Translations under genes and position numbers: made by a program
Shown here: in pieces, positions 13,853-32,222 of the stretch
How positions within the stretch are numbered: the first letter of the stretch is position 1
Layout: each line of letters opens with the position of its first letter
Assembly: GCA_009779265.1 (NCBI GenBank)
Contig: WREP01000030.1
Location: 1 to 32,349 of the forward strand
Origin: Betaproteobacteria bacterium
GTDB taxonomy: Bacteria > Pseudomonadota > Gammaproteobacteria > Burkholderiales > Rhodocyclaceae
Direction: 5' to 3'
Length of the DNA: 32,349 nucleotides
Notes under the pieces: generated by a model
Told to the model about the DNA's origin: nothing
Seen by the model: only the letters and a program-made list of their open reading frames with translations
Database searches by the model: none

Positions 13853-15172
13853 TTAGCGGCGCGGCAGGATCAGGCGGGCGATCAGGCCGCCGTCGGGGTT
13901 GGGCAGCAAGTCGAGGCGGCCGCCGTGCAGGCGGGCGACGCGGTCGACGATGGCCAGGCCAAGGCCGGTGCCGCCAGCGCCGCTGCGCGCTGCTTCGAGG
14001 CGGGTGAAGGGGCGCTTCAGGCGCTCGATTTCGGCGGGCGGGATGCCGGGGCCGCGGTCGATCACGTCGATGCTTACGGTTTCGGCATCGGCTGCCGCTT
14101 GCAGCCAGACTTCGCCGCCGCCGTATTTGCTGGCATTGTCGATCAGATTGGTCAGGGCGCGCGTCAGGGCCTTGGGCCGCAGTTGGAGGCGTGGCAGTTC
14201 GCTTGGGGTCAGGCGTAGCCGGCAGCCGGCGGCCTGCCGGCGCTCGGCGATATCGCGCAGTAGCGCGGAGAGGTCGGTGTCCAGTGGCGCTTCGCCGGAT
14301 TCGTGGCGGGCGTAGTCCATGAATTGCGAAATTACCGCTTCCATTTCCTCGATGTCGGCGATCACGCCCTGGCGTGCGTTTTCGTCGGCCAGACTCATCT
14401 CGGCTTCGAGGCGCAGGCGGGTGAGCGGCGTGCGCAGGTCGTGCGAGATGCCGGCCAGCACTTCCGAGCGATCCCGCTCGTGACGTTCGAGGCTGCTGGC
14501 CATGGCGTTAAAGGCGCCGGCCAGGCGGCGCATTTCCTCGGCGCCGCTTTCCGCCAGCGGCGGCGGCGTCTGGCCGTGGCCGACGGTGGCGGCGGCAGCG
14601 GCCATGGCCCGCAGCGGGCGGCTGATGCGCGAGGCGATCAGCCAGGCGACGATCAGCGTCAGCAGCACGGCGAGCGCGCCCCAACCGAGCAGATGCCCGG
14701 CGACATTGCGCGTCGCCCGCTCGCGCGGCAGGATCAGCCAGAATTCGTCCTCGTCCCCTTCGTCGAGGCGAAAGCTGATCCAGAAACCGGGTTCGTCATT
14801 GACCGCGGCGGCGACGCGGGTTTGCGGCCCGAGCCGGGCCGCCAGTTCGCGCTGGAGCAGGCGGTGGGAGCGGCTGTCAAAGAGGGGCAGCAGGCGGTCG
14901 TCGGCTTCCGCCGGCAGGAGGCGGATGCCTTCGCGCGAGCCGAGTTCCTGGAAGAGGCGTGGCCGCTTGTCGGCGGCGGCGGCGAGCAGCGAAGCGCGCA
15001 CCAGATTGACCGCCGAGGCCGCCAGTTGCGCCGTGTCGCGGGCGCGCGGCTCGGCGTCGAGATAGCGGTAGAGGCTGAACCAGACGGCGGTAGTGAGCAG
15101 GATGAGCAGCGCCAGCAGCAGGAAGGTGCGCGCCAGGAGCGAGCGCGGCAGCATCCTGGAAAGGGCGTTCAT
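13853..15172 (-). CDS. envZ: Osmosensor-type sensor histidine kinase EnvZ
   Basis: A 439-residue inner-membrane sensor kinase. Two membrane segments (about 15-34 and 161-181) flank a periplasmic domain, followed by a HAMP linker (SRISRPLRAMAAA), the H-box AGISHDLRTPLTRLRLEAEM with phospho-acceptor H244 (E. coli EnvZ His243), and an ATPase domain with N-box LIDNASKYG, G1 DRGPGIP and G2 GGTGLGLAIV. It phosphorylates and dephosphorylates OmpR. The ATG at 15172 is formed at the junction with the repeat element at 15172-15272, which now separates it from ompR by 97 bp, whereas in E. coli the two genes overlap in ATGA. The resulting 5' leader has only a weak ribosome binding site. Confidence 0.95.
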   Translation of the reverse strand: MNALSRMLPRSLLARTFLLLALLILLTTAVWFSLYRYLDAEPRARDTAQLAASAVNLVRASLLAAAADKRPRLFQELGSREGIRLLPAEADDRLLPLFDSRSHRLLQRELAARLGPQTRVAAAVNDEPGFWISFRLDEGDEDEFWLILPRERATRNVAGHLLGWGALAVLLTLIVAWLIASRISRPLRAMAAAAATVGHGQTPPPLAESGAEEMRRLAGAFNAMASSLERHERDRSEVLAGISHDLRTPLTRLRLEAEMSLADENARQGVIADIEEMEAVISQFMDYARHESGEAPLDTDLSALLRDIAERRQAAGCRLRLTPSELPRLQLRPKALTRALTNLIDNASKYGGGEVWLQAAADAETVSIDVIDRGPGIPPAEIERLKRPFTRLEAARSGAGGTGLGLAIVDRVARLHGGRLDLLPNPDGGLIARLILPRR

Positions 15173-15272
15173 TCCGTTTTCATTTCAATCGAGTACGCGA
15201 AGGCGAAGCGCAGACAGTACTGTAGTACGGCCAGCGAAGCCGACAAAGTAATCGGTTGAAAGGGAAATGGAA
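15172..15272 (-). repeat. MITE-like element, copy A, between ompR and envZ
   Basis: This 101-bp sequence starts with TTCC and ends with GGAA, with imperfect terminal inverted repeats of about 25 bp (20 of 25 matching by hand). It is flanked on both sides by TGA (read on the minus strand). Copy B at 17207-17301 matches it at 86 of 95 aligned positions plus one 6-bp gap. The core contains GCCGTACTACAGTACTGTC. The ompR stop codon abuts one end and the envZ start codon forms at the other. Removing the element and one TGA gives GCATGAAC, the ATGA overlap of ompR and envZ. I do not recognise it as a named family. Confidence 0.85.
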
Positions 15273-16001
15273 TCATGCGTCGCGCTTGTCGCCGTCCGGG
15301 ATAAAGACGTAGCCGAAGCCCCAGACGGTTTGCAGGTAGCGCGGCTGCGCCGGGTCGTTCTCGATCAGCTTGCGCAGGCGGGAAATCTGCACGTCGATGG
15401 CGCGGTCGAACGGCCCCTGCTCGCGGCCACGGGCCAGGGTCATCAGCTTGTCGCGCGACAGCGGCTGGCGCGGATGGCGCAGCAACACCTTGAGCACGGC
15501 GAATTCGCCGGTGGTCAGCGGTTGCGCCTCGCCGTCGCGGTGCAGCGTGCGGGCGACCAGATCGACCTCGACATTGCCGAAGCGGACGCTTCCCGCGTCG
15601 TCTTCCGGCGCGCCCGGCGGGCGGTGATCCTGGCGGCGCAGCACAGCATGGATGCGGGCCAGCAGTTCGCGCGGATTGAAGGGCTTGGGCAGATAATCGT
15701 CGGCGCCCATTTCCAGGCCGACGATGCGGTCGACGTCGTCGCCCTTGGCCGTCAACATGATGATCGGCGTCTGGTCGCCGGTGCCGCGCAGGCGGCGGCA
15801 GATCGACAGGCCGTCCTCGCCGGGCAGCATCAGGTCGAGGACGATGAGGTGAAAATGTTCGCGGCCGCGCAGCTTGTCCATCTGTCTGCCGTCGGCGGCG
15901 GCCTTGACCTCGAAGCCCTGCTCGCCGAGATAACGGGTCAGCAGATCGCGCAGGCGGACGTCGTCATCGACGACCAGAAGTTTTTGTGTGCTTTCGTTCA
16001 T
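15273..16001 (-). CDS. ompR: Two-component response regulator OmpR
   Basis: The 242-residue protein has a receiver domain with VDDD (11-14), phospho-acceptor D56 in LIVLDLMLPGEDGLSICRRL and the invariant lysine in DDYLPKPFNPRELLARI, followed by a winged-helix DNA-binding domain ending in RYLQTVWGFGYVFIPD. Similarity to E. coli OmpR is strong over the whole receiver (for example MLPGEDGLSICRRLR and KPFNPRELLARI). It controls target genes, classically porins, under EnvZ. ATG 16001 gives the standard length; an open frame continues upstream to 16133 but has no family sequence. The 153-bp gap to the divergent gene at 16155 probably holds its promoter. Confidence 0.96.
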   Translation of the reverse strand: MNESTQKLLVVDDDVRLRDLLTRYLGEQGFEVKAAADGRQMDKLRGREHFHLIVLDLMLPGEDGLSICRRLRGTGDQTPIIMLTAKGDDVDRIVGLEMGADDYLPKPFNPRELLARIHAVLRRQDHRPPGAPEDDAGSVRFGNVEVDLVARTLHRDGEAQPLTTGEFAVLKVLLRHPRQPLSRDKLMTLARGREQGPFDRAIDVQISRLRKLIENDPAQPRYLQTVWGFGYVFIPDGDKRDA

Positions 16002-16154
16002 GCGCCAAGGGTAATGAAATACGGCCGGAGCGCCGCCGCCAATGGTAACAACGAATTGCCGTCCGACCGAGGGAAACATATCCTTACATTTGCTGCCCGC
16101 TACGCGCCCGATGCCGGCGGACAATGACCGCATCCTTTCGCCCCGCGCACCGCC

Positions 16155-16516: not shown

Positions 16517-17206
16517 ATGCTGATTCTCGCCCTGGAAACCTCGACGGAGCTTGGCTCCTGCGCCCTCTGGCGCGATGGCGTCGTGCTTGAACGCCGCTGT
16601 CCGGCCGGACAGGCGCATTCGGCGACCCTGCTGCCGCTGATCCGCGAACTGCTCGGCGAAGCCGGCGTCGGCGTCGCGGCGCTCGATGCCATCGCCTTCG
16701 GCGCCGGTCCCGGCGCCTTCACCGGCCTGCGCATCGCCTGCGGCGCGGCCCAGGGGCTGGCGGTGGCGGCGGATCGGCCCGTGCTGCCGGTGACCAGCCT
16801 GGAGGCAATGGCGCTGCAAGCCGGCGACGGCCAGGTACTGGCCCTGCTCGATGCGCGCATGGGCGAAGTCTATATCGGCCGCTATCAAGTGGCCGGCGGC
16901 GACTGCCGCTTGCAGGGCGAGATCCATGTGCTGCCGCCGGCCGCGCTGCCCCTGCCTGAAACGGGCGGCTGGCGAGCCTGCGGCAACGCCCCGGCGGCCT
17001 ATCCGGTGCTGGATGAGCGTTTGCGGGCAGCCAGCATCGCCATTCTGCCCGGCATCCTGCCGACGGCGGCGGCGGTGGCCGCGCTGGCGGCACCGCGCGT
17101 GGCGCGCGGCGAGGGTATCGACGCGGCGCTGGCGGCGCCGCTATATGTCCGCGACAAGGTGGCCAAGACGGTTGCCGAGCGCTTAAGCGAAGGCGGCCGG
17201 GCGTGA
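16517..17206 (+). CDS. tsaB: tRNA N6-threonylcarbamoyladenosine protein TsaB
   Basis: TsaB (YeaZ) partners TsaD and TsaE in making the t6A modification at position 37 of ANN-decoding tRNAs. The 229-residue protein has the N-terminal ILALETSTELGSCAL, the GPGAFTGLRIACGAAQGLA block that is the family signature, and VLALLDARMGEVYIGRY. Length is normal. It lacks the metal-binding histidines of TsaD, as expected. The TGA stop abuts the small repeat element at 17207-17301, which separates it from rimI. tsaB-rimI linkage is common in proteobacteria. Confidence 0.95.
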   Translation: MLILALETSTELGSCALWRDGVVLERRCPAGQAHSATLLPLIRELLGEAGVGVAALDAIAFGAGPGAFTGLRIACGAAQGLAVAADRPVLPVTSLEAMALQAGDGQVLALLDARMGEVYIGRYQVAGGDCRLQGEIHVLPPAALPLPETGGWRACGNAPAAYPVLDERLRAASIAILPGILPTAAAVAALAAPRVARGEGIDAALAAPLYVRDKVAKTVAERLSEGGRA

Positions 17207-17301
17207 TTCCATTCCCATCTCAACCGATTACTTTGTCGACTGCCGTACTACAGTACTGTCTGCGCTTCGTCTTCGCGTACTCGATTGATCTGGAAATGGA
17301 A
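17207..17301 (+). repeat. MITE-like element, copy B, between tsaB and rimI
   Basis: This 95-bp element has TTCC...GGAA ends and imperfect 25-bp terminal inverted repeats (20 of 25 by hand), and is flanked by TGA at 17204-17206 and 17302-17304. It is the second copy of the element at 15172-15272 and points the same way relative to transcription. The left TGA is the tsaB stop; the last base A of the element plus the right TGA makes the rimI ATG. Without it the junction would be GCGTGAGC, a GTGA overlap in which rimI would begin with GTG. CTGGAAATGG near its right end can serve as ribosome binding site for rimI. Confidence 0.85.
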
Positions 17302-17762
17302 TGAGCACTCTGACGCTGGCGGCGGAATTCTTCCCGATGAACGAGCGCGATCTCGACGCGGTGGCGGCGCTGGAAGCGTCGGTGCAGAAATTTCCGTGGT
17401 CGCGCGGCAATTTTGCCGATTCGCTGCTCGCCGGCCATGGCGCCTGGGTCTTGCGCCGGGGCGGCGAGTTGATCGGTTTTTCCGTCATCATGCGGGTGAT
17501 CGACGAGGCGCATCTTCTCAACATCGGCGTCGCCGCCCGTTACCAGGGCTGCGGCCACGGCGCCCGGCTGCTGCGTCAGGCGATGGACAATGCCCGGCTG
17601 GCCGGCGCCAGCCGCCTGTTTCTCGAAGTGCGGCCATCGAACGAGCGGGCGGTGGAACTGTACCGCCATTTCGGCTTTCGCCAGATCGCCCGGCGCAAGG
17701 CGTATTACCCGGCCGCCGAGGGGCGCGAGGACGCGCTGGTTTTCGACAAGGAGTTGACATGA
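17301..17762 (+). CDS. rimI: Ribosomal protein S18-alanine N-acetyltransferase
   Basis: RimI is a GNAT acetyltransferase that acetylates the N-terminal alanine of ribosomal protein S18 using acetyl-CoA. The 153-residue protein has the PWSRGNFADSL motif, LLNIGVAARYQGCGHGARLL with the acetyl-CoA-binding Q/R-x-x-G-x-G/A pattern, LEVRPSNERAVELYRHFGF and the conserved C-terminal YYPA. Its ATG at 17301 uses the terminal base of the repeat element upstream. The stop overlaps the glycosylase start in ATGA, so translation of the two is probably coupled. Confidence 0.93.
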   Translation: MSTLTLAAEFFPMNERDLDAVAALEASVQKFPWSRGNFADSLLAGHGAWVLRRGGELIGFSVIMRVIDEAHLLNIGVAARYQGCGHGARLLRQAMDNARLAGASRLFLEVRPSNERAVELYRHFGFRQIARRKAYYPAAEGREDALVFDKELT

Positions 17763-29111: not shown

Positions 29112-31487
<2,376 letters not shown>

Positions 31488-32085: not shown

Positions 32086-32129
32086 CTCCCCTCCCCCCTC
32101 GCGGGGGAGGGCCGGGGGAGAGGGGGTGG
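32086..32129 (+). repeat. GC-rich dispersed palindromic repeat, copy 3
   Basis: Same orientation as copy 1 and almost identical to it (one G fewer and one A-to-T change near the end by eye). This copy is intergenic, showing that the sequence inside ygiQ is a mobile or dispersed repeat and not a native part of that gene. Confidence 0.9.
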
Positions 32130-32222
32130 CGGCAAGTGAGACGGCGGTTGGTTCGTCCATCGCACTTGCGTACGTCGCTTCGCGGGCAGGAGTGACGGGG
32201 AACGCCCCTTTCTTCGGTGAAG

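Follow-up and report, generated by a model that had tools for sequence, protein, structure and literature searches.

A short palindromic element of about 100 bp occupies two gene junctions in the window, which is the whole 32,349-nucleotide stretch of DNA analysed here. We consider it, with a probability of about 0.7, to be a miniature inverted-repeat element (MITE) that has a Correia-type core and TNA-type ends and duplicates a TNA target; its seats on stop codons would be the outcome of a selection sieve, and the ATG that it hands to the next gene a by-product. The preference for stop codons and for gene 3' ends in general is real, and was absent from the original prediction. The features at the two junctions are as follows.

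16517..17206, plus strand: tsaB-like gene (Pfam TsaD family), its end flush with the element
17204..17206, plus strand: left TGA, the tsaB stop codon and first copy of the 3-bp target
17207..17301, plus strand: element copy 1, separating tsaB from rimI, in orientation A
17302..17304, plus strand: right TGA, the second target copy, which with A17301 gives the rimI ATG
17301..17762, plus strand: rimI-like GNAT acetyltransferase gene (Pfam), its ATG made by the element
15273..16127, minus strand: ompR-like response regulator gene (Pfam; longest open reading frame, called start 16001)
15273..15275, minus strand: TGA, the ompR stop codon and first target copy
15172..15272, minus strand: element copy 2, separating ompR from envZ, in orientation A on this strand
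15169..15171, minus strand: TGA, the second target copy, which with the terminal A of the element (15172) gives the envZ ATG
13853..15172, minus strand: envZ/RisS-like sensor kinase gene, starting at the element ATG (Pfam histidine kinase and RisS periplasmic domain)
15151..15168, minus strand: 18 extra bases after the second TGA, in the first envZ residues (MNALSR), absent from aligned relatives

Each of the two copies was flanked by TGA on both sides, as had been read from the letters at tsaB/rimI and ompR/envZ. The upstream stop is intact, and the terminal A of the element together with the second TGA forms the ATG of rimI (17301) and of envZ (15172), again in line with the original prediction. 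The interior of copy 1 is 6 bases short of the 101-bp consensus. In Pfam, the OmpR-like protein is a response regulator with a C-terminal DNA-binding domain, and 'envZ' appears to be more exactly a RisS-like kinase, as far as the Pfam support goes. The window gave no match in Rfam at the gathering score, and its element gave none against plasmids. Other repeats were also seen in the window: tandem 7-bp units of the CCCGATT type where the contig ends (1-84), and several GC-rich palindromic repeats of the CCCTCTCCCC/GGGGAGAGGG type, in both orientations, at 29937-30101 and 32088-32132.

The element is short, non-coding, palindromic and multi-copy and has terminal inverted repeats, as is characteristic of MITEs. 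Searching the genome of the organism itself (G000, 94% complete, 2.53 Mb in 75 contigs) with a 101-base query returned the window pair (100% and 86%) and 18 other places at E <=1.6e-12. With an nhmmer profile built from 17 of its copies, 26 distinct copies were detected there, several degraded and some partial. Inverted arms of about 21 bp end in TTCCATTTCC, and a Correia-type core lies between them. In the 21-bp outer stem, 7 pairs were changed on both sides in some copy; such pairs and cells were more numerous than in nearly every shuffle, whereas further pair types were not above chance, 481 of 500 shuffles reaching their number. The covariance model R2, made from the 17 copies, replaced an earlier model without the outer stem (R1), which was not used. 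R2 matched three congeneric genomes 67 (G004), 42 (G013) and 41 times (G033); in G000 some R2 matches are the opposite strand of the same copy.

Several variants of the element were noticed. Deletion derivatives of about 55-60 bp keep both ends (L263 2730-2791, L271 2968-3029). A second, distinct palindromic repeat, whose ends resemble CAGGGCAATCGCATGAATG, interrupts element copies or lies directly against them (L273 3735-4005; L004). Near-identical left flanks recur across congeneric genomes (L062 and L066; L067, L072 and L074; L057 and L058; L312 and L313); these copies are probably old inherited insertions, and their arms are unlike those in the window.

The target was read from the flanks of the copies in the four genomes. 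There were 126 distinct copies in G000, G004, G013 and G033, and dropping three at contig ends left 123, which are the listed places away from contig ends and not a full census. An identical TNA was found on both flanks of 76 of the 123 copies (TGA 30, TAA 22, TTA 16, TCA 8), and TNA on at least one side of 119. These flanks showed that the element inserts with a 3-bp TNA target duplication; TGA, which had been proposed as the duplicated target, gave way to TNA in this tabulation. Two identical TNA flanks were missing in 47 of the 123 copies, many of which appear decayed and some of which may have been rearranged. The wider target consensus showed a weak excess of G directly after TNA (38 of 76). 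In 25 distant copies (L288-L314 without L295 and L313), the left triplet was TGA or TAA in 10 and the right one TCA or TTA in 2. By a mixed codon model, the upstream stop lay flush with the element in just 4 of the same 25, and we draw no claim from these triplets.

Empty sites were sought in relatives. From 378 relatives with a TsaB match, the best 80 loci were kept, the nearest named ones being metagenome-assembled genomes called Azonexus, Dechloromonas and, once, Desulfobulbus, on which account we speak of an Azonexus-type organism; the element was absent from all 80 (nhmmer, E 1e-3). The tsaB and rimI genes share an NTGA overlap in 61 of the 80 loci (36 GTG, 21 ATG, 4 TTG), lie adjacent otherwise in 17, and 2 loci are without an adjacent rimI. 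At a TsaB identity of at least 65%, the overlap was present in 31 of 33 relatives, with a GTG start of rimI within it in 24. The predicted empty junction GCGTGAGC occurs letter for letter in L083-L086. For ompR/envZ, both genes were found in 50 loci, with an NTGA overlap in 19 (11 of them ATGATG), another adjacent arrangement in 29 and 2 not comparable. Here the prediction was borne out in part: the genes do overlap in the nearest relatives with this region (L084-L086), where the junction reads GCATGATG, but the exact letters GCATGAAC occurred in none of the 60 of 80 loci read. The overlap itself thus stands as the ancestral arrangement, except that the window's envZ carries the 18 bases after the second TGA which the relatives lack.

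Two more junctions were compared, and Pfam confirmed their neighbours as PPIase/PdxA and deformylase/formyltransferase. For def/fmt, 36 genomes gave a match and 30 loci were retained; among the 29 relatives read, 28 have CATGA or CGTGA (L366, from G033, lacks both). At surA/pdxA, ATGA or GTGA was found in the closest by identity (L316-L318) and in several others, and the rest have TGATG or TAATG. Both sets appear to agree with empty, overlapping junctions. Overlapping genes, which the original prediction expected in element-free relatives, were therefore present at all four junctions compared. Target site duplication and empty sites in relatives are again what is expected of a MITE.

To place the copies relative to genes, we took gene ends from our own codon-score caller, which cannot read a gene through the element; it flagged none of the 123 copies inside a gene, and 7 overlapped a called gene by more than 20 nt. 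Fifty-four copies were flush with a stop and 69 were not flush with a called stop. Compared with the share of stops among non-coding TNA sites, stop-flush copies were enriched in G000 (16/26 versus 0.136 expected, binomial p = 1.8e-8), G004 (21/49 versus 0.134, p = 4.2e-7), G013 (11/27 versus 0.116, p = 1.1e-4) and G033 (6/21 versus 0.087, p = 0.0073). Stops were used 3-5 times as often as other non-coding TNA sites, convergent gaps included. Convergent gaps held 0.176 copies per stop versus 0.036 per other TNA (21 copies versus 9, p = 2.3e-5), and co-directional gaps 0.088 versus 0.025 (24 copies versus 35, p = 8.3e-6); divergent gaps held 12 copies, and 101 copies in total lay between two called genes. 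The rate per TNA site was 0.159 at the stop, 0.115 from -2 to 5 nt, 0.069 from 6 to 15 nt and 0.035 from 16 to 30 nt, and beyond 30 nt it was 0.035, 0.029 and 0.027, a copy between convergent genes being counted from both.

The stop-codon seat is a real preference, which may be due to a sieve or to targeting. According to the mechanism that we prefer, the element inserts with duplication of a 3-bp TNA, and insertions inside genes would be lost by purifying selection. TGA and TAA stops are themselves TNA sites, so the duplication restores the stop and the insertion would be tolerated; TAG does not fit TNA and was seen at a single stop-flush end. An insertion exactly on a TGA or TAA stop duplicates the whole codon and interrupts neither the upstream gene nor any part of the downstream spacer. 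Survivors would come to concentrate at stop codons and just downstream, where the enrichment is observed. At an NTGA overlap, the last A of the element and the second TGA form an ATG, and from it the next gene would be translated in an unchanged frame.

In convergent gaps no promoter is endangered and stops are preferred all the same, so a sieve in its simple form may fall short. Active targeting, by which the machinery would be drawn to gene 3' ends or stops in addition to TNA (for example by a DNA structure linked to transcription or translation), is in our judgement unlikely. It would account for a preference that is about five-fold even in convergent gaps and is already seen in G033, whose copies are the least diverged (mean 0.024; 6/21 versus 0.087), although every copy seen has passed through selection. 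It would also account for the gradient that decays over the first 15-30 nt past the stop, but terminators or other spacer functions just past stops could give the same gradient, the rate from 16 nt outward (0.027-0.035) is near that of divergent spacers (0.025), and no targeting factor is known.

Divergence within genomes was also compared. Stop-flush copies were less diverged than the others in G000 (p = 0.019) and G013 (p = 0.039) and not different in G033 and G004. A survivorship reading of divergence was not supported within genomes, where stop-flush copies were not the more diverged ones.

The original prediction went further and took NTGA stop/start overlaps, the sites of translational coupling, as the specific safe target. 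Our results did not support a preference for such overlaps, and we regard this version as very improbable. Of 55 stop-flush ends, two of which belong to a single copy, 5 have an element-made ATG for the called next gene; of 360 background stops, 53 are NTGA overlaps (Fisher p = 0.30). Reading added two further element-made ATGs that fail the automatic test or fall outside its set, in L010 (a formyltransferase gene) and L021 (a HIT-domain gene), which makes 7 in all. Against these seven cases, a co-directional next gene followed 24 of 55 stop-flush ends versus 244 of 360 background stops, so operon junctions are if anything under-used, and TTA and TCA duplications and insertions in spacers occur as well. 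The new ATG is a by-product of the element's terminal A.

At stops, the element lay in orientation A 41 times and in orientation B 14 times (binomial p = 3.6e-4). The bias was clear in G000 (p = 0.0023) and G013 (p = 0.012) and not in G004 (0.38) or G033 (1.0). The B strand folded more stably in all 118 near-complete copies (111 from the four genomes and 7 from elsewhere), as well as in 21 of 26 distant copies, where G-U arm mismatches numbered 35 on B versus 12 on A. In the four genomes the B/A counts were 35/5, 21/0, 50/5 and 84/9, with shared ancestry among the copies. The long hairpin, the G-U/G-T mismatches lying mostly on the B strand and the orientation bias would suit a single-strand, REP-like element of the HUH/Y1 type with TGA as its recognition sequence, but this is scarcely credible, because the flanking triplet varies and yet matches on both sides (TGA/TGA, TAA/TAA, TTA/TTA, TCA/TCA), which is the duplication of a variable target and not expected of REP/RAYT-type elements, and because the wobble counts within the four genomes reflect common ancestry.

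In the MITE reading, stop-flush copies in orientation A would place the weaker hairpin in the mRNA, which may be the cause of the bias, and a ribosome terminating on the upstream stop is predicted to melt the 5' arm and help to free the start region. For the six element-made starts folded, all of the seven but L010, opening the start region was predicted to cost 7.5-18.1 kcal/mol as found and 9.5-22.3 kcal/mol with the element reversed, higher in 6 of 6. With a ribosome held on the upstream stop, the predicted cost as found dropped to 2.3-7.1 kcal/mol, and the reversed form was easier in 2 of 6 (L001, L006), within 0.4 in 2 and harder in 2. The opening argument alone hence does not explain orientation A.

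R2 was also run on 399 genomes drawn evenly from a larger group, all of one order that we take to be Burkholderiales (GTDB). Matches were found in 54 of the 399 genomes and 29 of 158 genera at E 1e-4, with 10 candidates scored per genome, so that copy numbers in the order are lower bounds. The core, ACTTTGTCGGC..CTTGCCGTACTA..GTACTGTCTGCG..CTTCGCGT, is largely conserved, and the arms vary by lineage yet pair. The element of L303, from a genome of the same order, gave no match against phages. Two N. gonorrhoeae records of 2.17 Mb, both filed as plasmids, each contained at least 40 matches to it. The gonococcal stretch retrieved has the same core as the element, and it is probably the Correia repeat.

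Correia elements (CREE/NEMIS) of Neisseria share with our element the core (CTTGCCGTACTA..GTACTGTCTGCG), the class of about 105 bp, the inverted arms and the many copies. Their ends are TAGTGGATTAA-like instead of TTCCATTTCC, their arms and ends are unrelated to ours, and their target is TA instead of a 3-bp TNA; the element thus has the Correia core and neither the Correia ends nor the Correia duplication. For the Neisseria type there were more than 90 matches, from which 30 loci were retained, and among the 29 copies read, TA stood on both sides in 25 and none was flush with a stop, versus 54 of 123 for the TNA-ended copies. We infer that stop seats are fewer in Neisseria because a TA duplication, unlike a TNA duplication, would not re-form the stop into which it falls. 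In the available part of PMC4189776, a meningococcal primer contains CCGTACTATTTGTACTGTCTGCG, and size and core notes in the corresponding part of PMC2649163 add to the Correia identification.

Other known systems share single features. The available text of PMC12016507 gives the IS1031 group of the IS5 family a TNA preference and a 3-bp repeat, and our element has the same TNA duplication, but GAACCTG, with which the inverted repeat of the one member quoted starts, differs from TTCCATTTCC. Bacterial MITEs such as ERIC and RUP are likewise short, palindromic, non-autonomous and located in spacers, as far as the parts of PMC2229807 and PMC10969869 available describe them; these parts describe no TNA duplication on stop codons, and the former gives most such MITEs TA at their ends. 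In Yersinia, ERIC is mentioned as inserted at gene 3' ends (PMC10969869), so a seat of this kind has precedent. Titles and abstract openings named no MITE at stop/start overlaps, and no literature match combined miniature inverted-repeat with translational coupling, many subscription papers being outside the scope of both searches.

A mobilising enzyme was sought in G000, G004, G013 and G033 (79-96% complete), and no autonomous partner with the same ends was found through PF01609, PF13586 or PF13359. The PF13359 matches fell at four of the PF01609 places, and PF13586 had two matches, one at such a place and the other (L375) left out. Around all 13 PF01609 loci, none of the TTCC-type end pairs listed, at most six for each locus, had matching TNA flanks, and around 5 of these 13 no inverted ends of any kind with TNA were seen. 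The end pairs of G033 enclosed no transposase-bearing element; they comprised two short deletion derivatives, one copy with a nested second repeat and a diverged copy of normal size (L269), besides unpaired ends. No IS1031-type element with common ends was detected in the transposase loci covered.

A more ambitious view, which we hold only as a long shot, is that an order-wide superfamily of mobile hairpins has one core and swapped arms, and that its TNA branch on stops carries its own translational coupler. If this is true, the next start would be hidden in the 3' arm and opened by the ribosome terminating on the upstream stop. For the element as we read it, TNA duplication would be a simple rule for a harmless seat exactly on stop codons, which a TA-type relative cannot follow, and an overlapping gene pair can be split by 100 bp without loss of either frame. 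That Azonexus-type bacteria and Neisseria have the core in common suggests a family much wider than the Correia elements, which would form one of its branches; comparative tests could then address their origin and mobilising enzyme.
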